A stretch of DNA of 64,000 nucleotides from Candidatus Sulfuritelmatomonas gaucii. GTDB taxonomy: Bacteria > Acidobacteriota > Terriglobia > Terriglobales > Acidobacteriaceae. The stretch is taken from positions 12,463 to 76,462 of the forward strand of contig OKRB01000002.1 of assembly GCA_900290245.1 (NCBI GenBank). The letters are read 5' to 3'. The position numbers and the translations under genes are program-made. The notes under the pieces are model-generated. The model was not told the origin of the DNA. It ran no database searches and was given only the letters and a program-made list of their open reading frames with translations. This document shows positions 1 through 62,235 of the stretch, piece after piece. Each line of letters starts with the position of its first letter. Positions within the stretch are counted from its first letter, which is position 1.

Positions 1-53
1 AGAACAGAGAACAGAGAACAGAGGGCCCCAATTTCTAATCTCTAATCTCTGCT
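1..53. repeat. Heptamer array, inverted pair
   Basis: Three exact AGAACAG units (1-21), a GGGCCC centre (23-28), then TCTCTAA-type units (33-51). The two arms are roughly complementary, so the RNA could fold around GGGCCC. It begins directly after the stop codon of the leftward BMC-T gene. Confidence 0.8.
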
Positions 54-617
54 TTACACGTACTCGCGGAATAACTCAGGCGACGGATTGGGAATGATGC
101 CCTTGCCGACGAGCATGCCATCGTCGTCGGCGACCTTGCAGCCGGCGGTGACGGCGGCCTGCATGCTGGCCACGTCGCCTGCCATGAGCACGAACCCCTT
201 GCCGCCGAGCGCCATGGCGAGGTGAACGCGCATCAGGGTGACGGCGGCGGATTTGACGGCGGCATCGGCGACCTCGATGATGCTGGCCGCGGAGAAAGTC
301 TCGATGACGCCGATGGACTTGAGCTGAGCGGGTTCGATGTCGACAGTCTGCGAGATGGCCTGCAGCACCGTGGGATGGACGCGCGCGATTTGGCGGCGCT
401 CAATGAGCGAGGCCCCGGCCGCCGCCGCTCCGGCGGCTAGCGCCGACTGCACGCTGGTGACGTCGCCGGAAACGACAATGAGAAACTTGCCCGAGCAGAT
501 GCTGCGCGCGAGTAATAGTTGCACGCTGCCCGCCTTGAGCATCAGGTCTTCGACCACGAATCCCGTGGCCACGCTGGATAGTTCGATGAGTCCGATGGAA
601 TTGATTTCGGTGGCCAT
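54..617 (-). CDS. pduT: BMC-T tandem-domain shell protein, PduT-like
   Basis: This 187-aa protein contains two consecutive BMC folds (about residues 5-90 and 98-183) and should assemble as a pseudohexameric trimer in a microcompartment shell. The segment SICSGKF puts Cys41 where PduT has the pore cysteine (TICPGKF) that ligates a [4Fe-4S] cluster at the trimer axis, so a redox-active pore is likely. The second domain ends in VGKGIIPNPSPELF, close to the PduT C-terminus. The ATG has a good ribosome binding site (AAAGGAG, 6 nt). It lies on the same strand as the PduS-like gene upstream, and PduS and PduT are known electron-transfer partners. Length is normal for the family. The shell function is clear; the Fe-S cluster is inferred from the cysteine position. 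Confidence 0.9.
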   Translation of the reverse strand: MATEINSIGLIELSSVATGFVVEDLMLKAGSVQLLLARSICSGKFLIVVSGDVTSVQSALAAGAAAAGASLIERRQIARVHPTVLQAISQTVDIEPAQLKSIGVIETFSAASIIEVADAAVKSAAVTLMRVHLAMALGGKGFVLMAGDVASMQAAVTAGCKVADDDGMLVGKGIIPNPSPELFREYV

Positions 618-890
618 GGTGGCTCCTTTGAAGGGCAGTGATCAGTGGTCAGTGAGCTTTCAGCTATCAGCCTTCAGCTTGGTCGTTGTCTTACGGTCCC
701 TTCATTCCCGTCTTACGTCTCCGGTCCCGCGTCTTACATGTCTTACGCGCCGTCTTACGTCGACTTGCTTGCGGCGTTCGTGTCTTGCCTCAGGGGCTGA
801 AGCCCTGAACTTGGTTTGAGCTTTGTACGGCATGAATAAACTCATGCCCTGATACAAACCTCGGTTTCGTCTCTCCTATTCCCTGTCGCC
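618..890. repeat. Intergenic repeat cluster between the PduT- and PduS-like genes
   Basis: Holds three repeat types. At 635-682 are 7-bp units of the GTGGTCA and TTTCAGC kinds. GTCTTAC occurs exactly at 689, 710, 731, 740 and 752, with a variant near 780. At 789-860 are two hairpins: CAGGGGCT/AGCCCTG (791-807), then a long stem TTTGTA (822-827) with TACAAA (853-858) enclosing GGCATGA (829-835) with TCATGCC (842-848). No coding signal was seen. Read leftward, this is the 5' untranslated region of the PduT-like gene. Confidence 0.75.
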
Positions 891-2231
891 TTACGTTTCG
901 ATCACTACCGCATCGCTGCCGACGGTGACGCGGCCGTCGATGCTTGCGTGGATGCGCGCGCCGAGCTTGCCTGTTTCCGGCACGGCGATGAGATCGCCGA
1001 TGCGCACGCGATCGCCGGATTGGACCGTCGCAACGGCCGGCGCGCCTGCATGCTGCTTGAGCGGCAATGTCACCTTGCGCGGCGCGAAGTTGTGCTCGGT
1101 GAGCGGCCCTTCGTTGCGGAATTCGCCGAGACCGAGCCTGGCGATGAGGCGGCGCATGGGCACGCGGCGGAACTCGGCCATGGGGTGCGGAGTAATCGAT
1201 TCGGGCGTGCCTTTCCAGGTGAGGCCCCGCTCGCGCGCGACGGGCTTGCCCTGCACGCAGACGTTTTTCGGATCGAGATCTTCAGGGCAGGCGAACATTG
1301 TGCACAAGTTGCACTCGCAGCAGTAGAGCGTGGCGACCGTAAGATCGCCCGGCTGCGAAAAGCCCAGTGACTGCATGGCGCGGTGTGGCTCGATGGGATG
1401 GCCGAGAAGGTAGCGCGGGCAGAACTCGGTGCAGAAGCGGCATTGATCACATGCAGAGCGGCCGATCTTGGCGATGTGCATCCACGGCGCGTTGTGGCGG
1501 CGGATGAGCGCGTGCTCGGCGGGCAGAATGATGATGCCTCCGGTGGTCTTGGTGACGGGCACGTTGAGGTCGGCCGCGGGCTTGGCCATCATCACGCCGC
1601 CGAGCAGCACGCCGAAGTCGGCGACGGTCGGGCCGCCGGCTGCGTCGATGACTTCGCCGATGGTGATGCCCACGGGAACGCGCAGGGTGACGGGATTGGC
1701 GACGGCGCCGGCGATGGTCAGATATTTGTTCGTGACGGGCTGGTCGAGGCCGATGTTCATTAGGGTCTCGACATTGGCCACGGCGGTGTCGACATCTTTG
1801 GGCAGACCGCCCGGCGGAATGACGCGGCCTGTGATCATGTGCACCAGGATGAATTCGTCGCCGGCAGGATAGCAGTCAGGCAGGGCGACGACGCGGATGC
1901 CGGCCGGAGCAACGGCTTCGAGCGCGGCGATGATGTCCTGGTACTTCTCCTTGACGCCGATGACGCCCTCGCGCGCGCCGACGAGTTGCATGGCGATCTG
2001 CATGCCGCGTAAAAACGGCTCCGCGTGGTGGTGCAGGAGTTCCTTGTCTTTATGGAGGAGCGGCTCGCACTCGGCAGCGTTGGCGATGAGGAGCGGGACC
2101 TGGGTGCGGAGTTTTACGGCGGTCGGAAATCCTCCTCCGCCGGCGCCGATGATACCGAGCTCCTCGATACGGTCCAGGGAGGGGGTGCCGAGGGTGGTCT
2201 TTGCGCCAAAGTTGCCGGTTTTTGGCGTCAT
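891..2231 (-). CDS. pduS: PduS/RnfC-like Fe-S flavoprotein (NADH or cobalamin reductase type)
   Basis: This 446-aa protein matches the length and layout of PduS. It has an N-terminal glycine-rich nucleotide/flavin segment (GAGGGGFPTAVK, about residues 30-41), an SLBB-type region in the middle, and two cysteine clusters for [4Fe-4S] centres: CDQCRFCTEFCP and CCECNLCTMFACP. A C-terminal RnfC-like barrel follows. In Pdu compartments PduS oxidises NADH and reduces cobalamin, passing electrons through PduT. No B12-dependent diol dehydratase is visible here, so recycling NAD+ made by the aldehyde dehydrogenase, with electrons leaving through the PduT-like pore, is a more economical idea (inference). 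It starts at ATG 2231, divergent from the kinase gene, and is read with the PduT-like gene. Confidence 0.88.
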   Translation of the reverse strand: MTPKTGNFGAKTTLGTPSLDRIEELGIIGAGGGGFPTAVKLRTQVPLLIANAAECEPLLHKDKELLHHHAEPFLRGMQIAMQLVGAREGVIGVKEKYQDIIAALEAVAPAGIRVVALPDCYPAGDEFILVHMITGRVIPPGGLPKDVDTAVANVETLMNIGLDQPVTNKYLTIAGAVANPVTLRVPVGITIGEVIDAAGGPTVADFGVLLGGVMMAKPAADLNVPVTKTTGGIIILPAEHALIRRHNAPWMHIAKIGRSACDQCRFCTEFCPRYLLGHPIEPHRAMQSLGFSQPGDLTVATLYCCECNLCTMFACPEDLDPKNVCVQGKPVARERGLTWKGTPESITPHPMAEFRRVPMRRLIARLGLGEFRNEGPLTEHNFAPRKVTLPLKQHAGAPAVATVQSGDRVRIGDLIAVPETGKLGARIHASIDGRVTVGSDAVVIET

Positions 2232-2269
2232 AATTTCGGTTTTACCTCAGAATCCGCCAAAAGTAACGA

Positions 2270-2299
2270 TTGACTCTGCTCAAGAATATAGCGTATCAT
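2270..2299 (+). promoter_or_regulatory. Predicted sigma-70 promoter of the rightward BMC operon
   Basis: TTGACT (2270-2275) and TATCAT (2294-2299) are separated by 18 bp, 29 bp before the ATG of the kinase gene. The site lies in the 96-bp divergent gap between the leftward and rightward BMC transcripts. Confidence 0.55.
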
Positions 2300-2327
2300 T
2301 CATTTTCAATCAAGATCATTCAACAAG

Positions 2328-3599
2328 ATGAAGATTTTGATCCCAAATATCGGCAGCACCTCGTTCAAGTATCGGCTGCTTGAACTCGACGAGACTGCCG
2401 GGCCGGAGGGCTCTGGGGAGAAGGTTCTGGCCCAGGGGCGGGTGGAGCGGATCGGGCAGCCAGGCGGGGAGTGCGCCGACTGCACGGCGGCGATCCGCAA
2501 GTGTATCAGCGAGATAGCGGGGCCCGGCAAGCCGCTTGCGAGCCTCAAGGAGATCGGGGCAGTGGGCTTCAAGGCCGTGCATACAGGTCCGCTGAATACA
2601 CCGCAAATTATTGATGACGCGTTTCTGGTCGTAATGGAGGAGTTCAGCTTCCTGGCGCCGGCGCACAATCCTCCCTATATCGCGGCGATGAGGGCGTTCC
2701 GGCAGGAACTGCCCGAGGTTCCGCTGGTCGCGGTAATGGAGCCGTTCCCCTACCGATTCATGGACGAGGCGTCGACCACCTACTCGGTGCCCTATGCGTG
2801 GCGCATGGAGCACGGCATTCGGCGCTACGGTTTTCACGGAGCGAGCCACCGCTCGGCGAGCGAGCGGGCGCAGGCTGCGCTCGGGCGGAAGGATCTGCGC
2901 CATATCTCCTGCCACCTGGGCGGCAGCTCGAGCGTGGCAGCTTTCAAAAATGGCGTGGCGATCGATATAAGCATGGGTGCTTCGCCGCAGTCGGGCCTGC
3001 CGCAGAACAATCGCGTGGGCGACATCGACGTGTTCGCCGTGCTGCACATGATGAAGAAACTCGGACTGGGGCCGGATGAGATGGCCGCGCTGCTGGGCAG
3101 CGAGTCGGGGCTCGCCGGAATCAGCGGCACCAGCGGTGATCTGCGCGATCTGGAAGAGGCGGCAGCGAAGGGCGAGAAGCGCGCGCGGCTGGCGCTCGAC
3201 GTGTTTGTTCGTGCGATCCGGCATTATGTGGGCGCGTTTCTGCTGGAGTTGGGCGGGCTGGACGTGATCACGTTTTCCGGCGGCATCGGCGAGAACAGCG
3301 CGGCGATTCGCGCGGCCGTGCTGAAGGACCTGCGCGGTTTCGGGATTGAGCTCGATGAGGCGAAGAACGCGGCAATCCGCAGTGAAGGCGAGATTTCGAC
3401 GCTGCGCTCGGCAGTGAAGGTGCTGGTGATTCCGGCAAACGAGGAAACCATCGTCGCGCGGGAGACGGTTGCCGTAGTCCTGAGAGCGCGAGGAAAGGCA
3501 ACCGCAGATTCTTCGTCTCCGCAGGGCGCAAAGGGCGCGCCCCGCTTCGCTCAGAATGACAGGTCTGATTTGCAGCATGCTGTCGAAACGAAACGCTGA
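2328..3599 (+). CDS. Acetate/propionate-family kinase of the BMC locus
   Basis: This 423-aa acetokinase-family protein has the N-terminal phosphate/Mg segment NIGSTSFKYRLLEL and the second family signature around GFHGASHRSA. The family makes ATP from an acyl-phosphate and ADP. Next to PduL it should complete acyl-CoA to acyl-phosphate to carboxylate plus ATP; for a lactaldehyde pathway the substrate would be lactyl-phosphate (inference). It is the first gene of the rightward operon, with no clear Shine-Dalgarno. The last ~35 residues (from ARGKATADSSS) look like unstructured extra sequence. The DNA there contains CGCTTCGCTCAGAATGACAG (3543-3562), which looks like non-coding dispersed sequence, so the tail may be a recent read-through extension. 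Usual family length is about 400. Confidence 0.85.
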   Translation: MKILIPNIGSTSFKYRLLELDETAGPEGSGEKVLAQGRVERIGQPGGECADCTAAIRKCISEIAGPGKPLASLKEIGAVGFKAVHTGPLNTPQIIDDAFLVVMEEFSFLAPAHNPPYIAAMRAFRQELPEVPLVAVMEPFPYRFMDEASTTYSVPYAWRMEHGIRRYGFHGASHRSASERAQAALGRKDLRHISCHLGGSSSVAAFKNGVAIDISMGASPQSGLPQNNRVGDIDVFAVLHMMKKLGLGPDEMAALLGSESGLAGISGTSGDLRDLEEAAAKGEKRARLALDVFVRAIRHYVGAFLLELGGLDVITFSGGIGENSAAIRAAVLKDLRGFGIELDEAKNAAIRSEGEISTLRSAVKVLVIPANEETIVARETVAVVLRARGKATADSSSPQGAKGAPRFAQNDRSDLQHAVETKR

Positions 3600-3611
3600 A
3601 CAGGATCGGTT

Positions 3612-4289
3612 ATGGCAAGCGCAGCAAACACGGTTTCGATTGACAGGGCCACGGTGGAGCGCATCGTGCGCGAGGTGGCGCTCGAATACCTGGGCCACGG
3701 CGGGAAAGGGCCTGCGCCGTCGCTCACTGTCCAGACTTCGTCGCGCCACATGCACGTGAGTCGCGAGGATATGGACGTGCTCTTCGGTCCCGGCTCGGAG
3801 CTCACCGTCGACCGTCCGCTCTTCCAGGAAGGCAACTACGCGGCCAAGGAGATGGTAACCATCGTGGGGCCGCGCAGCCGCATCATTTCGAACCTGCGCA
3901 TCCTGGGGCCGATGCGCAAGCAGTCGCAGGTGGAACTGGCGTTTACTGACGCCATCATGCTCGGCTTCAACGATCTGCCAGTGCGGCTCTCCGGCGACAT
4001 CAAGGGCACGCCCGGTGCGGTGATCATTGGGCCCAAAGGTGTGGTGGAGCTGAAGGAGGGCGTGATTCGCGCCGCCATTCACGTGCACATGAGCGACAAG
4101 GAGGCGGCGCACTTCGGCGTGAAGCACGGCGACATGATGAAGCTGCGCGTGGGCGGGCCGTCGGGAGTCACATTCAATCGCGTGCATGTGCGCGTAGACC
4201 CGACGTACCGGCTGAACGTGCACATGGACACGGATGAGGCGAACGCCTGCGGGTTGCATTTGACCAAAGATGTGGAGCTGTTCAAGTAA
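3612..4289 (+). CDS. pduL: PduL phosphotransacylase
   Basis: This 225-aa PduL interconverts acyl-CoA and acyl-phosphate inside the compartment, regenerating CoA. It shows the family zinc-ligand histidines: SSRHMHVSRED near residue 42, the central IHVHMSDKEAAHFG, and a late LNVHMDTDEAN. Residues about 8-25 (SIDRATVERIVREVALEY) form a predicted amphipathic helix before a Gly-rich linker, the usual place for a PduL encapsulation peptide. The start is 12 nt after the kinase stop, with AGGA upstream. Family assignment is very secure. Confidence 0.95.
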   Translation: MASAANTVSIDRATVERIVREVALEYLGHGGKGPAPSLTVQTSSRHMHVSREDMDVLFGPGSELTVDRPLFQEGNYAAKEMVTIVGPRSRIISNLRILGPMRKQSQVELAFTDAIMLGFNDLPVRLSGDIKGTPGAVIIGPKGVVELKEGVIRAAIHVHMSDKEAAHFGVKHGDMMKLRVGGPSGVTFNRVHVRVDPTYRLNVHMDTDEANACGLHLTKDVELFK

Positions 4290-4332
4290 CGCAAGTGAAG
4301 TTGAGTAACGCCAGGCAACAAGAGAGGAAGCG

Positions 4333-4626
4333 ATGAAACAAGCGCTTGGAATGGTTGAGACAAAGGGGCTGGTCGCGCTGTTTGAGGCGACCGACGCCAT
4401 GCTCAAGAGTGCAAATGTAACCTTCGCCGGCTGGCAGACCGTGGGAGCAGGTCTGGTGACCGCCTTTGTGGAAGGGGACGTGGCGGCGGTGAAAGCTGCG
4501 ACGGACGCGGGCGCGGAAGCGGCATCCCGGATCGGCGAGGTGGTGAGCGTGCAAGTGATCTCGCGGCCTCACGACGAGCTGCCGTCTTTTGTTCAGAACA
4601 CCAAAGCTGCAGCGAAAAAGGCCTAG
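4333..4626 (+). CDS. BMC-H shell hexamer protein (copy 1)
   Basis: This 97-aa single-BMC-domain protein opens with the classic [20 protein letters not shown] and forms hexameric shell tiles. The pore loop is QTVGAGLVT. The C-terminus extends past the usual PHDEL with an Ala/Lys-rich tail. A strong ribosome binding site (GAGAGGAAGCG) precedes the ATG. It is the first of three BMC-H paralogues in a row, which would form mixed facets with different pores. The TAG stop is made by the first unit of the following heptamer array. Confidence 0.95.
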
Positions 4627-4767
4627 CTCCTAGCCTCTAGCTACTAGCCGCTAGCTTTGATGCGGTGGCGCGAACGTTAGAGGAATCACCAGAACCATTG
4701 GTGGGTTGGTGAACAGACGGATTGAGCATGAACGAGCTAGAAGCTAGCAACTGGTAGCTAGAAGCTG
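4621..4767. repeat. Inverted pair of heptamer arrays between BMC-H copies 1 and 2
   Basis: Left arm 4622-4656 is built of CTCCTAG, CCTCTAG, CTACTAG and CCGCTAG units. Right arm 4734-4767 carries GAGCTAG, AAGCTAG and TAGCTAG units in the opposite sense. About 77 bp of unrelated sequence lies between. The left arm contains the stop codon of BMC-H copy 1. Confidence 0.8.
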
Positions 4768-4784
4768 CTCGTCAAGGAGACGAA

Positions 4785-5054
4785 ATGAGTCAGGCAATTG
4801 GATTGATCGAAACCAGAGGCATGGTGGGACTGGTAGAAGCGAGCGACGCGATGGTGAAGGCTGCCAGCGTGGAGCTGGTGAAGACCGTGCAGATTGGCGG
4901 GGGCTACGTGACCACCATTGTGCGCGGTGATGTGGGCAGCGTGCGCGCCGCGGTGGACGCTGGCGCGGCGGCGGCCAAGATGGTGGGAGAGCTGGTGTCG
5001 AGCCACGTGATTCCGCGGCCCCACGATGCGCTGGTGGAACACATGTTGAAGTAG
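4785..5054 (+). CDS. BMC-H shell hexamer protein (copy 2)
   Basis: This 89-aa BMC-H paralogue begins [20 protein letters not shown]. Its pore loop is [11 protein letters not shown], bulkier than the GAGLVT/GSGLVS loops of its neighbours, so it may admit a different metabolite. It ends in [13 protein letters not shown] without an added tail. The ATG follows a strong ribosome binding site (CAAGGAGACGAA). The domain fills the whole protein. Confidence 0.95.
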
Positions 5055-5063
5055 CGCCGGCCC

Positions 5064-5097
5064 AGCTTTTAGCTATTAGCTCTTAGCTTTTAGCTCG
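5064..5097. repeat. Heptamer array after BMC-H copy 2
   Basis: Units TTTTAGC, TATTAGC, TCTTAGC and TTTTAGC follow each other with an exact 7-bp step, beginning 9 nt after the stop codon. Confidence 0.75.
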
Positions 5098-5196
5098 GTC
5101 GAGGCTACGGAAGCGCTGGAACTTCCTCCCCATTTTGCGAGCAACGCAGACGTGGAGAGGCTGGACGGATTCACAAGACAGAAGTGGAGAACGCAC

Positions 5197-5469
5197 ATGG
5201 CGAGTGAAGCACTGGGAATGATCGAAACCAAGGGCCTGGTGGCCCTGGTGCAGGCAACGGACGCGATGCTGAAGGCGGCCAGCGTGAAGTATATGGGCTG
5301 GAACAAGGTTGGCAGCGGCCTGGTGTCGGTGTACGTGACCGGCGATGTGGGCAGCGTGCGGGCCGCGGTGGATGCAGGCGCAGCCGCAGGCCGCGCGGCC
5401 GGCGAGGTGGTGAGCGTGCACGTGATCGCGCGCCCGCATGACTCGCTCGGCACGATTGTGCCGAAGTAG
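5197..5469 (+). CDS. BMC-H shell hexamer protein (copy 3)
   Basis: This 90-aa BMC-H paralogue starts [20 protein letters not shown] and has pore loop NKVGSGLVS, the standard small-pore type, so it is a candidate bulk shell protein. The ATG at 5197 is chosen over an in-frame upstream start at 5152 because GGAG lies 7 nt before it and the family fold begins here; the extra 15 residues would not fit. Confidence 0.94.
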
Positions 5470-5482
5470 AGGCTCGCGTAAT

Positions 5483-5523
5483 CCCACCCTAGCCGCAAAA
5501 AACAAAGACGCGGCGAGGGTGGG
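5483..5523. repeat. Long intergenic hairpin, GGGTGGGGCACCC type
   Basis: CCCACCCTAGCCGC (5483-5496) pairs with GCGGCGAGGGTGGG (5510-5523) at 13 of 14 positions around an A-rich 13-nt loop. GGCACCC follows directly. Similar GGCACCC/GGGTGGCC words occur near 11152, 23180-23250 and 63980. Confidence 0.7.
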
Positions 5524-5590
5524 GCACCCGTCCATCGAACAAGGGGGGCTTCAGCTCCAGAAGGAACGCGGCCGCGCAAGAGGTTCGCAA

Positions 5591-5887
5591 ATGTTTATAG
5601 CGAAAGTGATTGGAAATGTCGTTTCCACGCAGAAGATCGCAAAGTTTCGCGGGATGAAGCTGCTGCTGATTCAGCCCTACATCAACAAGGAAGGGAAGCT
5701 GCAGATCTCGGGAAGCTCAGTGGTCGCGGTCGATGGCGTGGGTGCCGGCGAGGGCGAGTGCGTGCTGTTCACGCAGGGCAGTTCCGCGCGCCTGACGCCC
5801 GCAACCAAGGATGCGCCCGTCGATGCGGTGATCGTGGGCATCGTGGACACCATTGAGGTGGGCGGCGCGACGGTTGCGAAACCGTAG
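5591..5887 (+). CDS. BMC-P shell pentamer protein (copy 1, EutN/CcmL family)
   Basis: This 98-aa protein has the EutN/CcmL fold: MFIAKVIGNVVSTQKI at the start, a central LQISGSSVVAVDGVGAGEGE strand-turn and the terminal DAVIVGIVDTIEV strand. Pentamers of this family cap the shell vertices. The true start is ATG 5591 (AGAGG, 7 nt upstream), because the reading frame upstream to 5438 is intergenic hairpin DNA. It is followed by the aldehyde dehydrogenase after 23 nt. Confidence 0.94.
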   Translation: MFIAKVIGNVVSTQKIAKFRGMKLLLIQPYINKEGKLQISGSSVVAVDGVGAGEGECVLFTQGSSARLTPATKDAPVDAVIVGIVDTIEVGGATVAKP

Positions 5888-5910
5888 CGGGAGATTCGGG
5901 GAGTTTCGAA

Positions 5911-7386
5911 ATGCAGACGCAACAACAAGTCTCGCCAGAGGTGATTGCAGAGATTGCCAGAGAGGTGGTAGCGCGGCTGCGCACGCAGATGCAGCCGGCC
6001 CCGGTCGCGGCGCATGCGGCAGTGACGACAGCGCCAAGAGCCGCAGTTGCCCCGCGTGACGGAGTGTTTGCCACCGTGGATGAAGCCGTGAATGCGGCCT
6101 ATGAGGCGCAAAAAAAGGTCGCCGCGCTGAGCCTGGCTGACCGCAAGCGGATCGTCGACATCATCGTCCGCATCTGCAACGACCGGCGCGAAGAACTTGG
6201 CCGCATGGAGCTGGAAGAGACCAAGGTTGGCCGGCTGGATCACAAGATTCTGAAGCTCACCAACATGCGCTTCGTTCTGGGTGTGGACGCGCTGCACACC
6301 GAGGCGCGCAGTAATGAAACCGGCGTGTGCCTGATTGAGCACGCACCGTGGGGCGTGATCGGCATGATGCTGCCGGTGACGCATTCGGTGCCCACTATGG
6401 CCTCGAACGCCATCAATGTTGTTGCCGCCGGGAATGCGGCGGTCTTTGGGCCGCATCCTTCGGGCGCAAAGGTGGCGCAGTACGCGCTGCAACTGTGGAA
6501 TCGCGAGATCGAGCGCGAGCTGGGCGTCGCCAATGTGTTCACCACCACGGTTGAGCCGACGATTGAAGCCGCCGAGCAGATCTTCCATCATCCCAAGGTT
6601 GCGCTGCTTTGCTGCACGGGAGGCGCGGCGGTGGCGCAGGCCGCGGCCAAAACCGGCAAACGCGTGATTGCAGGCGGCCCGGGAAATCCGCCGGTGGTGG
6701 TGGATGAAACGGCCGATCTGGATCGCGCCGCACGATGCATTATTGAAGGCGCGGCTTTTGACAACAACCTGCTGTGCATTGGCGAGAAGGAAGTGTTCGT
6801 TGTAGCCTCTGTGGCCGATGCGTTTATTGCCGCGATGAAGCGCGCCGGCGCATACCAGCTCGACCGCTCGGCCATCGATCGCCTGACCAAGGCGGCATTC
6901 AGTTTTGAAGGTGGCGGAGGCGGTGGATGCGCCCGCGCGCATGTGAAGAAGAATCTCGTGGGCAAGGATGTTGCCGTACTGGCGAAGGCTGCAGGAGTGC
7001 AGGCGCCGCCGGGAACCGATCTGCTGTTCGGCGAGACCGATGAGAATCATCCGTTTGTTGTGGAAGAGCAGATGATGCCGTTCGTCCCCATTGTGCGCGT
7101 CAGTTGCGCCGATGCGGCCATCGCCGCCGCTGTCAGGGCCGAACACGGCTACCGGCACACGGCCATCATCCACACCAACAATCTGGAGACTGCGACGCGC
7201 ATGGCGCGCGCCATCAACACTACGCTTTTCATTCACAATGCAGGTTCGCCGGCATCTTTGGGTGTCGGCGGGCCAGGTTACTTCAGCCACACGATTGCGA
7301 CTCCGACGGGCGAGGGAATCACTACTCCGCTCACATTTACGCGGGAGCGGCAGATGGTGGTCGGAGATGCGTTGCGAATCATTTGA
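5911..7386 (+). CDS. pduP: CoA-acylating aldehyde dehydrogenase, PduP-like
   Basis: This 491-aa enzyme belongs to the CoA-dependent aldehyde dehydrogenases of BMCs and should convert lactaldehyde (or propionaldehyde) plus CoA and NAD+ to acyl-CoA. The predicted catalytic cysteine is in DNNLLCIGEKE, and the Rossmann region includes the turn TGGAAVAQA. Residues about 8-25 (SPEVIAEIAREVVARLR) form a predicted amphipathic helix followed by an Ala/Pro linker (about 28-50), the layout of a PduP encapsulation peptide. GGGAG lies 7 nt before the ATG. The gene sits between BMC-P copies 1 and 2, as expected for a core enzyme. Confidence 0.93.
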   Translation: MQTQQQVSPEVIAEIAREVVARLRTQMQPAPVAAHAAVTTAPRAAVAPRDGVFATVDEAVNAAYEAQKKVAALSLADRKRIVDIIVRICNDRREELGRMELEETKVGRLDHKILKLTNMRFVLGVDALHTEARSNETGVCLIEHAPWGVIGMMLPVTHSVPTMASNAINVVAAGNAAVFGPHPSGAKVAQYALQLWNREIERELGVANVFTTTVEPTIEAAEQIFHHPKVALLCCTGGAAVAQAAAKTGKRVIAGGPGNPPVVVDETADLDRAARCIIEGAAFDNNLLCIGEKEVFVVASVADAFIAAMKRAGAYQLDRSAIDRLTKAAFSFEGGGGGGCARAHVKKNLVGKDVAVLAKAAGVQAPPGTDLLFGETDENHPFVVEEQMMPFVPIVRVSCADAAIAAAVRAEHGYRHTAIIHTNNLETATRMARAINTTLFIHNAGSPASLGVGGPGYFSHTIATPTGEGITTPLTFTRERQMVVGDALRII

Positions 7387-7470
7387 GAGCAGTGGTCAGT
7401 GATCAGTGGTCAGTGGTCAGAAAAACAGGGGCGTAGGGACCAGGGGCTGGGGACTAGAGAACAAGGATTT
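7387..7470. repeat. Heptamer arrays after the aldehyde dehydrogenase gene
   Basis: Exact 7-bp steps of GTGGTCA, GTGATCA, GTGGTCA, GTGGTCA (7392-7420), then a G-rich set with GGGACCA, GGGGCTG, GGGACTA (7434-7458). The array starts right after the TGA stop. Confidence 0.8.
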
Positions 7471-7488
7471 GGGAAACAGGTCTTCGAA

Positions 7489-7815
7489 ATGTTTTTGGCG
7501 CGCGTTGAAGGAACGGTCGTGGCAACAGCAAAGCATCCGTCGCTGAGTGGATGCCGGTTTCTGGTGGCGCGGCGGCTTGAAGCCGATGGATCCGCGGCCG
7601 CGGAGCCGAACGTGGTGGTGGATTGGCTGGGCGCGGCGCGCGGCAGTACCGTGATGGTTTCAACCGACGGCGATATTGCGCGGGAGCGGTTCGGCAACAA
7701 CACTCCGGCGCGCATGGTGGTGGTGGGGATCGTGGATGCGGTGCAGCAGCCCGAGATACCCGAAAATGCGTCGCTGGCGTCGAAGCAGGCTGGCGAAAAA
7801 AGGAGCGCGGCATGA
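7489..7815 (+). CDS. BMC-P shell pentamer protein (copy 2)
   Basis: This 108-aa EutN/CcmL-family protein starts MFLARVEGTVVATAKHPSLS and contains the VVVGIVDAVQ closing strand, followed by a ~20-residue charged tail missing in copy 1. Start ATG 7489 is chosen because the sequence upstream in frame is heptamer repeat. The stop codon overlaps the start of copy 3 (ATGA), so the two are translationally coupled. Several BMC-P paralogues are common in aldolase-type BMC loci. Confidence 0.92.
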   Translation: MFLARVEGTVVATAKHPSLSGCRFLVARRLEADGSAAAEPNVVVDWLGAARGSTVMVSTDGDIARERFGNNTPARMVVVGIVDAVQQPEIPENASLASKQAGEKRSAA

Positions 7816-8099
7816 GGCTCGGCATCGTGCGCGGACACATCACCTTGACTCCGGCGGTTGAGTCGTTTCACTCGCGGACGCTCGCCATCCTTGAGCCGGT
7901 TACGATACAGAATTTGCGGGCGAAGAACGGGCAGGGCGGTGGCAAGGCGCTGATCGCGATCGACGAGCTCGGAGCAGCGACGGGCCAGATGGTGGCATTC
8001 ACCGAGGGGCGCGAGGCGGCGAATCCTTTTTATCCCGCGCCGGTGCCCGTGGATGCGTACCTGGCGCTGATTGTCGATACGGTTGACGTTGCGCAATAG
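7812..8099 (+). CDS. BMC-P shell pentamer protein (copy 3)
   Basis: This 95-aa EutN/CcmL-family protein starts MRLGIVRGHITLTPAVESF and ends AYLALIVDTVDVAQ. Its opening is more diverged than in the other two copies, but the family turn GAATGQMVAFTEG is clear. A strong ribosome binding site (AAGGAG) lies inside the end of copy 2. Separate pentamers may occupy different vertices or offer mixed assembly. Confidence 0.92.
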   Translation: MRLGIVRGHITLTPAVESFHSRTLAILEPVTIQNLRAKNGQGGGKALIAIDELGAATGQMVAFTEGREAANPFYPAPVPVDAYLALIVDTVDVAQ

Positions 8100-8129
8100 A
8101 GAGTTTTGATCGGATTCCGAGGTGAGGAA

Positions 8130-9239
8130 GTGAAGCACGGAGAAAAGAGCATCGATCTGGGCAGCCGCAAGCTTGTGGCGATGCGCGATGTGCAGGATGC
8201 GCTGGCGGCGGGCGCTACCAGCATTGAAACGGCGGCGAATTGCGTGGTGACGCCTTCGGCCCGGGACTTCCTGCAGCAGCACGGCATCGAGCTGGTGATG
8301 GACAAGGCGGCGGATGCATCCGCTCCGGCTGCTTCGGACGATTATGCTTCAGCGCCCGCCGCAGTCAAGAGCCAGGCCGCTGTCAATCGCCGGCTGTTTA
8401 CCACGCCGGAAGCTGAAGAGATCAAGAAAGAGATCTGCTCAGTGGGCCGCAAGCTGTGGATGCGCCAGTTCGTTGACGGCAACGGCGGCAACATCTCGTA
8501 TCGCATCGGGCCGAATGAGGTGTTGTGCACGCCGACTCTGGTGAGCAAATACGACCTGACGCCCGAGGACATCTCGCTTACGGATCTTGAAGGCAATCAG
8601 ATTGCCGGTTCGAAGCCGCGGACCAGCGAGCTTCTGCTGCATCTGGAAATCTACAAGTCGGTGCCCGAGGCAAAGGCCGTCGTCCACTGCCATCCGCCGC
8701 ATGCCACGGCCTACGCCATCACCGGCCGCGTGCCGCCGAACATGATCATCCCGGAGTTTGAAGTTTTCGTGGGCAAGGTTGCGATTTCGCCCTACGAAAC
8801 GCCGGGGACGAAAGCGTTTGCTGAAACCGTTCTGCCTTACGTGCGCGAGCACAACACCGTGCTGCTCTCGAATCACGGCATCGTTTGCTGGGCCGATACG
8901 GTGACGCATGCGGAATGGTATGCGGAGGTGCTTGAGACATATTGCTGGACGTTGATGCTGGCCACGCAGCTGGGGGTGCCGATCTCAACCATCTCAGAGC
9001 AGCATGGCTCCGACCTGCTGGCGATCAAGAAGAAGCTCGGCCTGCCCGATATTCGCTTTGACACCTCGCGGATGAAGGAGTGCCAGCTCTCCGATCTCGA
9101 AGTTCCCGGCTCAATCGCATTGGAACCGACCCCGTGCGACGGGAACAACAGCAACGGCGGGAACGGCGGCGCTGACCTGGAATCGCTGGTGAAGGCGGTG
9201 ACGGACGCGGTGATGGAGGGGCTGGAAAACAGGGAATAG
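8130..9239 (+). CDS. Class II aldolase of the BMC, with N-terminal domain and C-terminal encapsulation peptide
   Basis: This 369-aa protein has a class II aldolase/adducin core (about residues 93-315) with the phosphate loop DGNGGNISYR, the zinc motif HCHPPHATAY and the late SNHGIVCW. It should cleave L-fuculose-1-P or L-rhamnulose-1-P to DHAP and L-lactaldehyde, feeding the neighbouring dehydrogenase. Stand-alone FucA/RhaD are 215-275 aa. The extra N-terminal ~55 residues include NCVVTPSARDFLQQHGIEL, resembling a short segment in some Eut proteins, then an Ala-rich linker. The C-terminus has an Asn/Gly linker and a helix LESLVKAVTDAVMEGL, a likely encapsulation peptide. GTG 8130 is chosen (GAGG 7 nt upstream); a TTG at 8106 is possible. 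The substrate cannot be decided from sequence alone. Confidence 0.88.
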   Translation: MKHGEKSIDLGSRKLVAMRDVQDALAAGATSIETAANCVVTPSARDFLQQHGIELVMDKAADASAPAASDDYASAPAAVKSQAAVNRRLFTTPEAEEIKKEICSVGRKLWMRQFVDGNGGNISYRIGPNEVLCTPTLVSKYDLTPEDISLTDLEGNQIAGSKPRTSELLLHLEIYKSVPEAKAVVHCHPPHATAYAITGRVPPNMIIPEFEVFVGKVAISPYETPGTKAFAETVLPYVREHNTVLLSNHGIVCWADTVTHAEWYAEVLETYCWTLMLATQLGVPISTISEQHGSDLLAIKKKLGLPDIRFDTSRMKECQLSDLEVPGSIALEPTPCDGNNSNGGNGGADLESLVKAVTDAVMEGLENRE

Positions 9240-9300
9240 GGATCAGGGAGTAGGGAATAGAAATACGGGACCAAGGGAACAAGGGTCCGAGGGAACAAGC
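9226..9300. repeat. Heptamer/octamer array at the aldolase stop codon
   Basis: Units AGGGAAT, AGGGATC, AGGGAGT, AGGGAAT continue into 8-bp units of the GGGAACAA type. The stop TAG of the aldolase lies inside the first unit, and the last residues (ENRE) are encoded by repeat-like DNA. Confidence 0.75.
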
Positions 9301-22699: not shown

Positions 22700-23306
22700 C
22701 GAAAGCAGGGCAGAGGGATCAGGGGTATGCCGACATGCGATGTACACCTCTGATCCCCCTACCCCCTAGTCATTCCTGGGCTTAAGTGATTTTTTGGGGC
22801 GAGATGGGCAGTGGCTATCTCCTACAGATCACTGAAAGAAAAAGAGTTAGATCAAAAATCCTGATAAATGAAGCATTGAGCGGCGTCAGCGGAGTTTGCG
22901 GCGTTAGCGGAGCTAAAAAGCAGGCGAGGTATCCGGTATGGCTCCGGAATTCAGGGTCGCTCCATTGCCCTGCTACATCAGCTACTAAGACAAATGTAGA
23001 GATTTCGCAGAAATAATCTGCAAAGTGCGCGGGAGAAACATTGGGTTTGGCATGAAAGGGTTGAGGTGGGTTCGAGGCGGCGGAGTGCTTGACTTTCGCG
23101 AACGTGCCTGCCGCAGTAGATCGCTCCCAAGTCTCCGGATCCAACGGGCCAATCAGGAGTGATCCAGGCGATTGTGAATCCCAGGTCTCAGAAGCGAGAC
23201 CTGGGGCACCCCTTCTTTCACCCATTTTGCCTCTTGGGGAGCTGGGCCACCCGCCCGTTGACAAACCCGCGCCAAACCTCGATTCTGTACCCCTCGGAGG
23301 ACGACA
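22700..23306. other. Gap of 607 bases: repeats and hairpin, no gene
   Basis: At 22704-22770 is an inverted pair of heptamer-like arms (GAGGGATCAGGGGTA versus CTCTGATCCCCCTA). At 23180-23205 is a perfect 10-bp stem CCCAGGTCTC/GAGACCTGGG with a 6-nt loop, followed by GGCACCCC and, at ~23240, GGGCCACCCGCCC. No protein-coding signal was convincing in either strand. Confidence 0.6.
23180..23205. repeat. Perfect 10-bp hairpin beside GGCACCCC
   Basis: CCCAGGTCTC (23180-23189) and GAGACCTGGG (23196-23205) pair perfectly around AGAAGC. With the neighbouring GGCACCCC it resembles the element at 5483-5530. Confidence 0.65.
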
Positions 23307-25911: not shown

Positions 25912-26100
25912 CAGCTTTTAGCCATCAGCCGTCAGCTTTCAGCGCGAGCTTGCTATTTTTCGTGTTATTGATTCAAAAAAGGGAAGACGGACGGCCCGCG
26001 TTCCGGAAAAGGGATTTTCCGGGCTGCGTCGGCACAACGCTCGGCGCCCGAAGACCACCGCGGCGGTTCTGAAAGCTGACGGCTGAGAGCTGGTTGCTAA
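25912..26100. repeat. MITE-like element with perfect 18-bp inverted ends of heptamer repeat
   Basis: TCAGCCGTCAGCTTTCAG (25925-25942) is the exact reverse complement of 26069-26086. 126 bp lie between, including TCCGGAAAAGGGATTTTCCGG-like dyad sequence. Both ends are extended by further TTTAGC/CATCAGC units. No transposase is present. Confidence 0.75.
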
Positions 26101-26844: not shown

Positions 26845-27599
26845 CTTACTCCCTCCGCCACGGACGCCCCGTTGCCAGCCTTTTCCGTACCGTTTTCGTA
26901 GCCTTCGTCGCTGCCGCATTCGCTTTCGCGCCTCTTCGCATTGCCGCGCAGGCGCCGGTACCCGCACATTCGTCTACGCCGGCGGCAACGAGTACACCGG
27001 CGAACGGCTCGGCGGCGGCGGAAAATTCCAATTCCGACGATGAAGAAAAGGCCTTCCTGTACTCACCCGCCGTGCAATCGGTGGCCCGCATTCTGCACCT
27101 GAAGGTGGAAACGACCGTTCACATCTTCCTGGGAATTAACTTCGCTGTAATCTTTCTGCTGATCGCCGTCCCGCTCGGCCGCTACATGCCAAGGATCATT
27201 CGCAAGCGCTCGCAGACTCTCGGCCATCACCTGAGTGAGGCGCGCGAGGCAACCGCGGACGCAAAGACGCGACTGAGCGCCGTGGAGGCGCAGCTTGCCG
27301 GACTGGGCGAGGAGATCGCCAAGTTTCGCGCTGAGGTGGAGCAGGAAGCTCTCGAAGACGAAAAACGCATCAAGGCGTCGCTCCATGAAGAGAGCGCGCG
27401 CATTGTGGCGTCGGTCGAGCAGGAGATTGGCGTAGCCGTGGCCCAGGCCAAGCGCGGATTGCGCAACTTTGCCGCAGATCTGGCCATTGAGCAGGCTTCA
27501 AAACAAGTGGTGCTGACGCCGGAGACAGATCGCGCCCTGATTGCCGAATTTGTCTCCGGGGTTGCCGCCGACGGCGCGAGCAAGGGAGGAAAGAACTAG
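26841..27599 (+). CDS. atpF: ATP synthase subunit b with an N-terminal extension
   Basis: This 252-aa b subunit is long (usual 155-190). Residues ~12-36 look like a signal peptide or extra membrane helix (VFVAFVAAAFAFAPLRIAAQA), then comes a Thr/Ala/acidic linker (to about 75), then the usual membrane helix (about 95-115, INFAVIFLLIAVPLG) and the stalk helix. A GTG start at 26841 is chosen because it overlaps the b' stop (GTGA); an earlier in-frame start at 26655 would run inside b'. The extra N-terminus may place a periplasmic or cytoplasmic domain on the stalk. Confidence 0.88.
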   Translation: MTYSLRHGRPVASLFRTVFVAFVAAAFAFAPLRIAAQAPVPAHSSTPAATSTPANGSAAAENSNSDDEEKAFLYSPAVQSVARILHLKVETTVHIFLGINFAVIFLLIAVPLGRYMPRIIRKRSQTLGHHLSEAREATADAKTRLSAVEAQLAGLGEEIAKFRAEVEQEALEDEKRIKASLHEESARIVASVEQEIGVAVAQAKRGLRNFAADLAIEQASKQVVLTPETDRALIAEFVSGVAADGASKGGKN

Positions 27600-28139: not shown

Positions 28140-28243
28140 CTGCTAGCTTCCAGCCGCTAGCCCCTTGTTGCCGGGTTTGACTGTCGCTCGTGAAGGACGG
28201 AAAAGGAAAGCTAGAAGCTAGTAGCTAGAGGCTAGAGGCTACG
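28131..28243. repeat. Inverted pair of heptamer arrays between atpH and atpA
   Basis: Left arm 28131-28163 has CTCCTAG, CTGCTAG, CTTCCAG, CCGCTAG units. Right arm 28208-28243 has AGCTAGA, AGCTAGT, AGCTAGA, GGCTAGA units. The arms are complementary across 44 bp. The left arm contains the atpH stop. Confidence 0.8.
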
Positions 28244-28277
28244 AAGCAAGAACGAAGAATTAGGAACAGGAACGCAG

Positions 28278-33514: not shown

Positions 33515-33538
33515 CCCGGACCCGTCCGATCCGCTTCA

Positions 33539-44421: not shown

Positions 44422-44512
44422 GCGCTCGCTCCCATGGCGCCCAATTCCTCTCTGTCTTTGCTCCCTTGTCCCCTCGCTCCATTGCTCCCTCGTTCCCTGC
44501 CTTCGCGGTTTG
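44422..44512. repeat. C-rich octamer array after the CPCC gene
   Basis: TTGCTCCC, TTGTCCCC, TCGCTCCA, TTGCTCCC, TCGTTCCC words run with a near 8-bp step, the reverse sense of the array at 30977-31022. Confidence 0.7.
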
Positions 44513-57328: not shown

Positions 57329-57362
57329 CGTTCCCTAATCCCTAATCCCTGGTCCCTGTCTT
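57329..57362. repeat. Heptamer array at the end of the glycosyltransferase gene
   Basis: CCCTAAT, CCCTAAT, CCCTGGT, CCCTGTC with an exact 7-bp step (57333-57360). The reverse sense contains the TAG stop (57335-57337) and codes the last residues QGPGIRD of the leftward gene. Confidence 0.8.
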
Positions 57363-58621
57363 TCGAGTTTCTCCAGCGCATCACATGCCGTCATCACGCC
57401 ATTTTCGCGCGCAACTTCTTCGGCCGCGGCTCGTGCCCGCTCGTCATACTCCGGCTCGGAAAGCATCTCCCTCGCCTTGCGCGCCACACGCCACGCTTTA
57501 AAGTCGGAGCGCTGAACGACGCGCGCCACTCCCAGGCGCCGCATGCGCCGTGCGTTGTCCGGCTGGTCGTGCGAGTAGGGCATGATCAGCATTGGCCGGC
57601 CCGCGCGCAGGCATTGCGCCGTGGTGCCCACACCACCTTGATGAACCACGAGCGACGCGCGCGGAAACAATCGTGAATACGGCGCGTACTCTGCCACGCA
57701 AATCAATTCGGGCAGCGAAATCTCAGGTCTATTGCGCGGATCGTCCCCGATCAGCAGCACGGCGCGCACGCCCAGCTTGATGGCCGCTCGCGCCGATTGC
57801 TCGTAGAAATCGCCCGCAGCCATCACCGCAGCCGAGCCAAGCGTGAAAACAGCCGGCGGCTCGCCCGCATTCAAAAATGTTTCAAGCTGCGAGGGTAGTG
57901 CGGCGTTGCCGGCGTCCGCATCGTAAAAACAGAATCCCGTAATCAGCGTGTGCTCAGGCCAATCCTTCTGCTCGACGCCCAGAACGCGCGAGAAGAGCGC
58001 GAGCACCAGGTGCGGCGAGTGCTTGGCCTCGAAAATGGGGTTCTTGCCCATCGGCAAGCCGAGCTCGCGCCGCAGTTCGTAAATCGGCTCAGGCCATTTG
58101 CGCGTGACAAAGCGCGCCAGCCGACGCATGGCGCCGCCCATGCCCGGAGCCTTGTCGGCGCGCGACAGCCGCGGATACGGCGGCAGCACCGGTGGATCGT
58201 ACGCGGAAAAAAACGAGAACGGCGCCAGCACGTAGCTTGCCCACGGAATACCCGTCACCTCCGCCACAATCGGTCCCGCGTAGTTCAGTTCGCCCAGCAG
58301 CAGCAGATCGGCGCGCGCGGGCCGCGTCGCCGCGTCGAGCAGGTCGTCATAGGTCTGCCTCAGCACCGGGAAGAGGAATTCGCGCAGCCCTGTCTCCGTG
58401 CCCTTCTTCACGTCGTAAATCATCTGGATGAGCAGCGTATTCGAGGGATCGATATCGGGCCGGAGCGCGTGAAATTCAATGCCGAGTGGCTCGATTTTCC
58501 GGCGGTAGAGGTTGGGCAGCGCCATCACCGGCGAGTGGCCGCGGCGCTTCAGTTCGAGCGCAATGGCAATCAGCGGATTGATATCACCAAAGGTGCCGAT
58601 GTTCGACAGAACGATGCGCAA
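57335..58621 (-). CDS. UDP-glycosyltransferase, MGT/GT1-type
   Basis: This 428-aa cytoplasmic glycosyltransferase (UGT/macrolide GT fold) starts LRIVLSNIGTFGDINPLIAIALEL and has the C-terminal donor site VVHQGGVGTTAQCLRAGRPML and IMPYSHDQPDNA. It would glycosylate a small hydrophobic acceptor. TTG 58621 is chosen (GAGGA 8 nt upstream); an upstream frame start at 58696 adds ~25 residues. The last residues QGPGIRD and the stop come from a heptamer array. Confidence 0.9.
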   Translation of the reverse strand: MRIVLSNIGTFGDINPLIAIALELKRRGHSPVMALPNLYRRKIEPLGIEFHALRPDIDPSNTLLIQMIYDVKKGTETGLREFLFPVLRQTYDDLLDAATRPARADLLLLGELNYAGPIVAEVTGIPWASYVLAPFSFFSAYDPPVLPPYPRLSRADKAPGMGGAMRRLARFVTRKWPEPIYELRRELGLPMGKNPIFEAKHSPHLVLALFSRVLGVEQKDWPEHTLITGFCFYDADAGNAALPSQLETFLNAGEPPAVFTLGSAAVMAAGDFYEQSARAAIKLGVRAVLLIGDDPRNRPEISLPELICVAEYAPYSRLFPRASLVVHQGGVGTTAQCLRAGRPMLIMPYSHDQPDNARRMRRLGVARVVQRSDFKAWRVARKAREMLSEPEYDERARAAAEEVARENGVMTACDALEKLERQGPGIRD

Positions 58622-60529: not shown

Positions 60530-60568
60530 GATCTCTAGTCTCTGATCTCTGTTCTCTGATCTCTGTCT
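60530..60568. repeat. Heptamer array TCTCTGA/TCTCTGT
   Basis: TCTCTAG, TCTCTGA, TCTCTGT, TCTCTGA, TCTCTGT with an exact 7-bp step (60532-60566), ending 3 nt before a small gene. It is the same family as the array at 1-53. Confidence 0.85.
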
Positions 60569-60570: not shown

Positions 60571-60702
60571 ATGAAGATCCTCCTCGCCATTGCCGCCATC
60601 GTCCTCATCGCCGGCTCGCTCTACGCCGACTACAAGTGGCGCCGCTGGATAGAAGCCCGCCGGCAGCAACGCGACCATCCCGATTCCGGCGCCAAGCCCT
60701 GA
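60571..60702 (+). CDS. Small 43-aa single-helix membrane protein
   Basis: A short reading frame giving MKILLAIAAIVLIAG followed by SLYADYKWRRWIEARRQQRD and a short tail. One membrane helix (about 3-19) is followed by a strongly basic, Trp-rich segment, a common plan of small membrane proteins. It lies between two heptamer arrays, and its TGA is part of the second one. Confidence 0.5.
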   Translation: MKILLAIAAIVLIAGSLYADYKWRRWIEARRQQRDHPDSGAKP

Positions 60703-60730
60703 CCGCTGGCCCCGACCCCCGACTCCCGCC
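60699..60730. repeat. Heptamer array after the small gene
   Basis: CCCTGAC, CGCTGGC, CCCGACC, CCCGACT, CCCGCC with a 7-bp step, starting at the TGA stop. Confidence 0.65.
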
Positions 60731-60790
60731 ATTCCCCCTCCTCCCCGTTCTTCGTTCGTTACAATGGCTTTAGGGAGCCGTCCAACCAAC

Positions 60791-61510: not shown

Positions 61511-61582
61511 CCAGGTGCCCAACATTCGGCGTCCGCCGCGGCTGAGCTTTGCGCCTATGGTGGAAAAGCGCTCAGCGTAACC

Positions 61583-62080
61583 ATGAGACCCGCCCCCGCC
61601 CATCCCGCACCCCTACGCGCCATTCTGTGGGGCGGCCTGCTCTGCGGCGCGCTCGATATCACCGCCGCCTTCGTCATCTACGGCGCCATGGGCCTTCCTC
61701 CCACGCGGCTGCTTCAGGGAATCGCCTCCGGCCTCCTCGGCCCGCGTGCCTTCGCCGGCGGCGTTCCCACCGCGCTGCTCGGCTTCTTCTCTGAGTTTCT
61801 GATCGCCACCGGCACCGCAGCCGTCTATGTCCTCGCCGGCCTCTGGATGGTCTTCCTCACGCGCCGCCCCTGGCTCGCCGGCCCGCTCTATGGAATCGCC
61901 GTCTACTGGTTCATGCAGCTCGTGGTGCTGCCGCTGTCGCGCTACGCCCACCGCCGCTTCTCGCTCCGGATCACGCTTATCGGCATCGCCATCCACATGG
62001 TCTGCGTGGGCCTGCCCATCGCGCTCGCCGCCCGCCGCTTCGCTACATGCAGGGAGCAGGGAGTAGCCAGTAGCCGGTAG
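61583..62080 (+). CDS. Four-helix membrane protein, unknown
   Basis: A 165-aa protein with about four membrane helices. The first is ILWGGLLCGALDITAAFVIYG; the pattern GLWMVFLTRRPWLAGPLYGIAVYWFMQLVVLPLS is common among acidobacterial orphan proteins of unknown function. The last residues REQGVASSR and the TAG stop lie in a heptamer array (AGGGAGC, AGGGAGT, AGCCAGT). Confidence 0.7.
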   Translation: MRPAPAHPAPLRAILWGGLLCGALDITAAFVIYGAMGLPPTRLLQGIASGLLGPRAFAGGVPTALLGFFSEFLIATGTAAVYVLAGLWMVFLTRRPWLAGPLYGIAVYWFMQLVVLPLSRYAHRRFSLRITLIGIAIHMVCVGLPIALAARRFATCREQGVASSR

Positions 62081-62235
62081 CCAGTAGCCGGTGGCGAAAA
62101 ACTCTAAAGCCCGGAAATCGCAGTTGAGAACAAAAACAGAAAAGCCAATAGCGAGAATTCTTCAGCTACAAGCTACCGGCTACCAGCTACAGGCTGACCC
62201 CTAGTCCCTAATCCCTGGTCCCTAGTCCCTGCATC
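62050..62235. repeat. Inverted pair of heptamer arrays between two convergent genes
   Basis: Left arm 62050-62094 (AGGGAGC, AGGGAGT, AGCCAGT, AGCCGGT, AGCCAGT) and right arm 62162-62232 (CAGCTACAAGCTACCGGC, then CCCTAGT, CCCTAAT, CCCTGGT, CCCTAGT). The arms carry both genes' stop codons, TAG at 62078 (+) and 62208 (-). Confidence 0.8.

Follow-up and report, generated by a model that had tools for sequence, protein, structure and literature searches.

Stop-anchored heptamer arrays in an acidobacterial genus as possible arms of intercistronic hairpins

The window analyzed here is a stretch of 64,000 nucleotides from the acidobacterium Candidatus Sulfuritelmatomonas gaucii (assembly GCA_900290245.1, contig OKRB01000002.1, positions 12,463 to 76,462 of the forward strand), that is, 64 kb of a 5.29-Mb genome in 162 contigs, and the elements in question are degenerate tandem arrays of 7- and 8-nt units located at the ends of its genes. 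The arrays are organized by inverted partner arrays and by a fixed core within the unit, both of which were overlooked in an earlier note made on this DNA from its sequence alone. We put at roughly 0.4 the probability that the arrays form the arms of intercistronic hairpins, a class of elements the layout of which is kept while the sequence turns over, and which would mark a boundary between cistrons rather than terminate transcription.

The earlier note had placed arrays at 18 stop codons of the window. Scoring these stops for period-7 and period-8 arrays (score of at least 9, no more than 12 nt from the stop) located an array at 13 of them (4626, 5054, 7386, 9239, 11087, 25906, 28139, 29810, 30977, 32956, 60702, 62080 and 62208; 8-mers at 11087 and 30977), and Tandem Repeats Finder (TRF) placed tandem 7-mers at stops 54 (row 30–50) and 57335 (row 57332–57350), bringing the total to 15 of 18. 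At stop 44419 an 8-mer array begins 38 nt off; stops 22699, with an inverted repeat instead of an array, and 11601, with a period-12 TRF row only, are weak cases. Among the 68 TRF rows of the window, periods 7 and 14 stand out. A scan against shuffles covered 457 spacers of 20–1500 nt, drawn from 878 kb of this genome (score of at least 12, ten dinucleotide shuffles), and put periods 7 and 8 far above expectation, with 40 and 10 arrays, respectively, against 0.2 per shuffle in each case; periods 14, 16 and 21 gave 23, 6 and 7 arrays, and the remaining periods from 4 to 24 gave 0–4 each. With genes called by a home-made hexamer open reading frame (ORF) caller, not Prodigal, spacers held 76 arrays in 150 kb and genes 14 arrays in 754 kb (30-nt gene flanks count as spacer, and period-7 and period-8 rows are counted separately). 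Similar arrays are present in 400 kb sampled from the single-contig 5.99-Mb genome G002 and in records not marked as metagenome assemblies, Acidobacteria bacterium AB60 (L097) and Silvibacterium bohemicum S15 (L099); an assembly artefact, which the note had allowed for, is therefore unlikely. The window itself is array-dense: arrays occur in 17 of its 51 spacers of at least 30 nt, against 41 of 493 such spacers elsewhere in the part of the genome that was sampled, a roughly fourfold difference.

The position of the arrays was queried in five genomes of one genus (1.88 Mb, 1,117 spacers) against randomized positions, using a null model that allows an array to overlap a gene by up to 30 nt. In spacers between genes of the same direction, 46 of 99 arrays lie within 12 nt of the stop codon against 22.0 expected (p = 2.5e-4), and in convergent spacers, 15 of 18 against 10.4 (p = 0.008); the convergent result is important because no start codon competes there. 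Counts near start codons were 14 of 99 in same-direction spacers (22.1 expected) and 3 of 12 in divergent spacers (3.4 expected). A narrower null, in which arrays are kept less deep in genes, gives expectations of 16.3 for same-direction stops, 8.6 for convergent stops and 16.3 for starts, and once arrays with more than 10 nt inside a gene are removed, 39 of 92 same-direction arrays (15.3 expected) and 10 of 13 convergent arrays (5.3 expected) are near stops. The association with gene ends described in the earlier note thus holds genus-wide. Mapped over the 927 spacers of at least 60 nt, array coverage past stops is 4.8% at 0–9 nt, 6.8% at 10–19 nt, and 6.3% in the next bin; farther than 60 nt from the stop it is at most about 1%, and coverage 5′ of starts peaks at 2.8%; an array is carried by 71 of 548 same-direction, 17 of 153 convergent and 10 of 226 divergent spacers of this length. 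Sixteen of the 99 same-direction arrays start no later than the last base of the stop codon. Two window genes terminate within an array, which provides their final codons and stop: a glycosyltransferase-like gene (57335–58621), at which site none of the 14 homologues listed (72–86% identical) has an array, and gene 61583–62080, the C-terminal extension of which is encoded by none of the 16 more distant homologues listed (about 33–45%). One homologue of the latter, L250, carries CCCTGTT-like units about 20 nt past its own stop.

Variation within the arrays is confined mainly to certain positions of the unit, with a fixed core accompanied by freer positions. Across 116 arrays, column heterogeneity was 721 against 472 ± 24.5 in simulation, and 437 columns were invariant against 358. 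The unit in the genus is mostly YAG followed by two bases common to the array (CT, GG, TT, TG and others) and two freer bases, YAGxxNN; in 47 arrays inspected by eye, post-stop units are, with few exceptions, AG-type when read on the coding strand. Strict YAGxx chains of three, four, five and six units numbered 31, 46, 31 and 2, respectively, with none longer, and the control, a single mononucleotide shuffle, yielded just three chains, each of three units. A looser measure puts 60 of 135 period-7 arrays at 28–34 nt and 16 at 42 nt or more. The heterogeneity and chain-length analyses corroborated the observation of the earlier note that the unit changes from place to place while the 7-bp step is kept, and they speak against slippage with random mutation. 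Slippage growth as the sole cause, which the note had considered, is disfavored by a length distribution that peaks at four to five units rather than falling off and by variation concentrated in certain columns.

The preference for four or so units invites comparison with the G-quadruplex elements proposed for the GGGAATC repeats of Xanthomonas, with which the arrays share position, the four-unit preference and inverted pairs as these are described in the available text of Rehm et al. (2015, PMC4692102); CAGGGAN 7-mers and GGGA-type 8-mers are moreover present here. However, a GG core occurs in 13 of 110 strict 7-nt chains of at least three units (8-mers uncounted) and is absent from the other 97, and the larger CT, TG and TT families, which have no G tracts, share the peak at four to five units. 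Measured against the G-tract unit of the Xanthomonas heptamers, as far as that text describes it, the arrays are alike in layout and do not belong to the G-quadruplex family. Quadruplex formation is ruled out as the general cause and has next to no chance of accounting for the arrays at large, while it could hold for the GG family.

Spacers with two 7-mer arrays predominantly carry a single family in inverted orientation. This was the case for 58 of 71 pairs, against 15.7 (maximum 24) after re-pairing, while 15 of the 71 qualify as same-family in direct orientation; the count leaves aside 11 two-arm copies from genome L122, an ascertained set with which it had stood at 69 of 82. Dropping this set, like widening the null for stop distances, made the effects smaller without abolishing them. 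The five genomes alone gave 23 of 31 against 10.4 (maximum 17) by random re-pairing of right arms. Same-family arrays stand in opposite orientation, and the spacer can therefore fold into a hairpin. Of the 51 same-direction spacers with arrays, 20 have a stem score of at least 12, where shuffles give 1.3; of the 393 without arrays, 23 do, where shuffles give 5.7. The hairpin survey, stem counts, spacer alignments, arm-complementarity analysis and arm-pair counts cover spacers up to about 260–540 nt, and the other counts cover spacers from 15–60 nt, depending on the analysis, up to 1500 nt and free of N runs. Outside the 7-mer set, a very long intergenic hairpin at L172:8814–8999 (stem score 44) is made of 8-mer units, GGTTCTGN, and similar intercistronic hairpins at L200:4765–4876 and L164:1434–1735 have arms of units that by eye look like 9-mers, ACGCAGAGG and CGCGAAGGA. 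The class may therefore include units of lengths other than 7 and 8.

Genes 27600–33514 of the window are atpH, atpA, atpG, a small ORF without a Pfam match, atpD and atpC, and four of the five spacers between them hold arrays. At the atpD–atpC spacer, an array is present by eye in 14 of 15 genomes of the genus (source genome included; both spacer ends present), with differing units. Six unit families, assigned by eye, occupy this one spacer: TAGCTNN, CAGTTNN, CAGTYNN, CAGGGAN, CAGRTNA and GTTCGCN. In 13 spacers from outside the genus, inspection by eye showed no array. The sister genomes L073 and L074, 88% identical over atpG and atpD, bear different families at this spacer. On a FastTree tree of 16 taxa, 11 changes are required to account for the family labels, where shuffled labels require 9.8 on average, and presence requires two; the unit families at atpD–atpC are without phylogenetic signal. 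Between related species the letters are swapped and the layout is kept, which suggests that shape matters more than sequence, and the spacer in these 15 genomes offers natural replicates for asking how a spacer affects operon mRNA.

The same operon bears on transcription termination, a role that the earlier note had suggested. That the arrays follow stop codons, those of convergent genes included, would suit terminators or 3′-end signals of transcription units. Yet the arrays sit between atp genes, inside the ATP-synthase operon, and for this operon termination is rejected; in the one region scanned for terminator-like sites (27500–33600), three were found against 6.7 in shuffles, none of them on an array. 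We consider a terminator role very improbable. Elsewhere in the operon, atpG–atpD spacers of the genus measure 10–85 nt when array-free and 85–181 nt when array-bearing, and those of the source genome (536 nt) and of L065 (725 nt), as measured, both include extra sequence in which an ORF match lies. In the window, the ORF between atpG and atpD (31127–31483) encodes 118 aa and has no Pfam match; it has a partial match (41%) at the same place in L065, and several congeners have a short spacer there instead. In other lineages, arrays with other units (score of at least 11, no shuffle control) were found in 27 of 80 named loci around atpG, including records titled Pyrinomonadaceae, gp4 and others, and 100 kb each of a same-order relative (G026) and a same-class relative (G039) held 3 and 7 arrays, respectively.

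A model of an intercistronic element can be drawn from this layout. One arm of four to five heptads, YAGxxNN in the genus, begins a few nucleotides past the stop codon, and a second array of the same family, reversed, often follows further on, just 5′ of the next ribosome-binding site. The trait that is kept would be the structure, a long stem of 5–6-bp helices broken every 7 nt. Within a polycistronic mRNA, such a hairpin may set neighbouring cistrons apart: it would shield the one 5′ of it against 3′ decay and insulate the start that follows, with no role as a terminator. Whole elements would be gained and lost as blocks, the post-stop site being tolerated or preferred.

Several results weigh against this model. 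Many arrays have no partner array, and no stem scoring at least 12 is found in 31 of the 51 array-bearing same-direction spacers. In arrays picked irrespective of pairing, the arms were unit by unit no more complementary than arms with shuffled units (p = 0.055 for the genus, and p = 0.82 and 0.79 for two further sets). With no match in unit order, the arms therefore share a unit family, not a copied order, and snap-back copying of one arm into the other is rejected. An arm-order test on 69 stems pre-chosen for pairing gave a mean of 19.0 against 17.2 shuffled, with 6% at p ≤ 0.05, and the pairing of free positions N5 (50% against 25% expected) and N6 (85% against 34%) comes from a stem set biased by the same choice and is not relied on. 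Eight window spacers were folded, five of them with arm pairs: four are clearly stable (z of −5.8, −5.2, −3.9 and −2.8) and four lie near shuffles (z of 0.1 to −1.3), the atpH–atpA spacer being among the latter despite its arm pairs. A signature of pairing on the RNA strand is absent from 74 co-directional stems, with 97 G·U against 86 A·C pairs. The corresponding ratio was 30:20 with arrays, 28:14 in array-free same-direction spacers and 37:25 in all array-free spacers; the test is weak because these array-free controls show little power, and it is on this test that selection for pairing at the RNA level, lacking the asymmetry, was set aside. For a dispersed family of genome L122, the RNAalifold covariation term is 0.27, and a double change is seen in 2 of 27 pairs. 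The TAGCTNN spacers of L068, L069, L071 and L074 align at 80–84% over 55–71 nt, and part of the atpD–atpC pattern therefore reflects simple descent rather than turnover. Within the genus, atp spacers that lack an array measure 8–85 nt, and an element is therefore not strictly needed there.

The heptads might alternatively be by-products of replication, made by hairpin-assisted slippage or template switching and spared by purifying selection only where they follow a stop. Arrays are depleted in genes and in divergent spacers, which is compatible with such a process, and heptameric simple sequence repeats are said to be common in bacteria, with a link to polymerase slippage proposed in the available text of PMC4692102. 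Against it stand the peaked unit number, the concentration of variation in certain columns, arms that are not mirrored unit by unit, and the stop preference in convergent spacers, and we regard this origin as unlikely.

A somewhat better, if still doubtful, alternative is a non-autonomous dispersed element resembling repetitive extragenic palindromic (REP) sequences or miniature inverted-repeat transposable elements (MITEs), the hairpin being recognized by a mobile-element enzyme and the post-stop site being where insertions survive. Genome L122 harbors a dispersed family with 44 matches (the two strands of one place are often counted separately), of which 11 two-arm copies were examined and two further long matches noted. 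The ten copies other than the query are 69–79% identical, a stop is no more than 15 nt away from 8 of the 11, and the family folds as 6-bp helices parted by single unpaired positions, a 6+1 rhythm that also fits the hairpin model. Its loops have a near-constant length of 35–43 nt, which is in part ascertainment, as the query held both arms, and they resemble one another a little more than shuffled loops do (7.13 against 5.72), a weak signal; homology of whole copies is possible in this one genome, and a search of genome L119 returned mostly single-arm matches. The presence and absence of arrays at orthologous spacers, the differing families of the close congeners L073 and L074, and the two window genes that end inside an array, an end encoded by no homologue listed, also favor a mobile origin. 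Y1 transposases (Y1_Tnp) occur in 34 of 41 genomes, in 24 of 25 of the array-rich genus and in 8 of 14 of the next family. They are few, though, at 0–10 copies per genome; no target-site duplication was established at the copies looked at by eye, the loops of genus elements have no clear homology (mean Smith–Waterman score of 6.71 against 6.36 shuffled), and unit sequence varies from array to array within one genome.

The arrays, arms and related repeats of the window are collected in Table 1. Positions 1–9300, which are array-rich, contain genes for bacterial microcompartment (BMC) shell proteins, an aldehyde dehydrogenase, a class II aldolase and an RnfC/Nuo51-like protein, and are likely a microcompartment locus.

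Table 1. Array features along the window, in window coordinates
Feature	Position	Strand	Remarks
7-mer arrays AGAACAG x3.3 (1–23) and AATCTCT x3 (30–50)	1–50	−	Past stop (54) of BMC-domain gene 54–617; TRF, Pfam
7-mer array	636–680	−	5′ of start of minus-strand gene 54–617; TRF and period scan
Left arm, TAGCTNN family	4622–4656	+	Overlaps stop of BMC gene 4333–4626
Right inverted arm	4735–4766	+	5′ of start of BMC gene 4785–5054; evidence includes Pfam
YAGCTNN-type array	5064–5095	+	9 nt past stop 5054
CAGTGRT array	7390–7420	+	3 nt past stop 7386
CAGGGAN/TAGGGAN 7-mers, then 8-mers GGGAACAA	9228–9299	+	7-mers over stop 9239
8-mer array GTCAGCAA	11097–11123	+	9 nt past stop 11087
19-nt inverted repeat, arms 22708–22726 and 22746–22764	22708–22764	+	8 nt past stop 22699; weak as array
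YAGCYNN array	25913–25943	+	6 nt past stop 25906; period scan
Left arm, TAGCTNN	28132–28161	+	Overlaps atpH stop (28139)
Right inverted arm	28208–28252	+	5′ of atpA start (28278); whole-spacer fold z 0.07, not better than shuffles
Both arms, YAGCTNN	29812–29872	+	atpA–atpG spacer
8-mer array AGGGAACA	30981–31022	+	3 nt past atpG stop
Left arm, TAGCTNN	32962–32992	+	5 nt past atpD stop
Right inverted arm	33026–33056	+	Ends 5 nt 5′ of atpC start; spacer fold −56.9 kcal/mol, z −5.8
8-mer array	44458–44498	+	38 nt past stop 44419
Array entering 3′ end of a gene	57332–57350	−	Supplies stop codon of glycosyltransferase-like gene 57335–58621
TCTCTGA array	60530–60568	−	Divergent spacer (as called)
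Degenerate 7-mer array	60699–60757	+	Across stop 60702; period scan
GTAGCCR array	62049–62092	+	Encodes C-terminal extension and stop (62080) of gene 61583–62080
AGCTACM arm and CCCTAGT array	62164–62230	−	Across stop (62208) of minus-strand radical SAM gene; evidence includes Pfam

Rfam gave no match in the window at the gathering threshold, and the literature searches listed no paper on such repeats in Acidobacteria. REP elements are short intergenic palindromes present in many copies, with a conserved sequence and without heptad arrays. The elements described here are likewise short intergenic palindromes in many copies, and REP identity fails on the conserved palindrome, given unit families that vary within a genome and loops without clear homology. 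The short tandemly repeated repetitive (STRR) heptanucleotides of heterocystous cyanobacteria are tandem heptamers, as are these arrays.

The closest known system is formed by the GGGAATC heptamers of Xanthomonas, which the available text of Rehm et al. (2015, PMC4692102) treats together with the GGGGA(C/T)T heptamers of Nostoc as degenerate repeats with fixed and free positions. According to that text, Xanthomonas arrays mostly have four units, lie within 50 bp past the stop on the coding strand or, on the other strand, 5′ of the next start, and are found between aligned ORFs and seldom between divergent ones; inverted pairs number 70 and 75 in two Xanthomonas genomes and are few in Nostoc, and 83% of the Xanthomonas repeats are kept between two species. 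Arrays in that study reach 26 units, and three heptanucleotides are mentioned in Calothrix, with no word there of inverted pairing or of anchoring at stops. Each lineage is described there as having one G-rich unit type, tied to G-quadruplexes, with a function given as unknown. Set beside this description, the acidobacterial arrays are likewise degenerate, mostly intergenic heptamers near stops on the coding strand, rare between divergent ORFs, with four to five units and inverted pairing. Unlike those of Xanthomonas and Nostoc as so described, they comprise many families in one genome, with cores that are mostly non-G and with 8-mers too, and the family at an orthologous spacer varies between species.

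The TAACTGA repeats of marine Beggiatoaceae, Cyanobacteria and Bacteroidetes are also intergenic heptamers, and in the available text of MacGregor (2015, PMC4679880) they consist of one unit in 2–6 copies in the main genome, mostly just 5′ of start codons, with one inverted repeat overall and with related heptamers seldom repeated. TAACTGA is the reverse complement of a CAGTTNN-type unit found here; compared with the repeats described in that text, the acidobacterial arrays differ in being of many families and anchored at stops, without enrichment at starts.

The known heptamers near gene ends, in Xanthomonas, Nostoc and Beggiatoaceae, have so far been explained case by case, by G-quadruplexes or by regulator binding. 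The same position, unit number and inverted layout with unrelated, mostly non-G units, together with a layout kept at an orthologous spacer, suggests one shared cause that does not depend on sequence, and we argue that such a cause is needed, since the Xanthomonas layout is shared mostly without G tracts. More tentatively, and with the odds against it, intercistronic hairpins of this kind could constitute a widespread class defined by architecture, in which two inverted arrays of four to five heptads, placed after a stop and ahead of the following start and alternating between helix and mismatch every 7 nt, would be maintained at given spacers through complete unit replacement. Some machinery or structural constraint that counts 7 nt might then lie behind the class, and the heptamers of Xanthomonas, Nostoc and Beggiatoaceae would be special cases of it.

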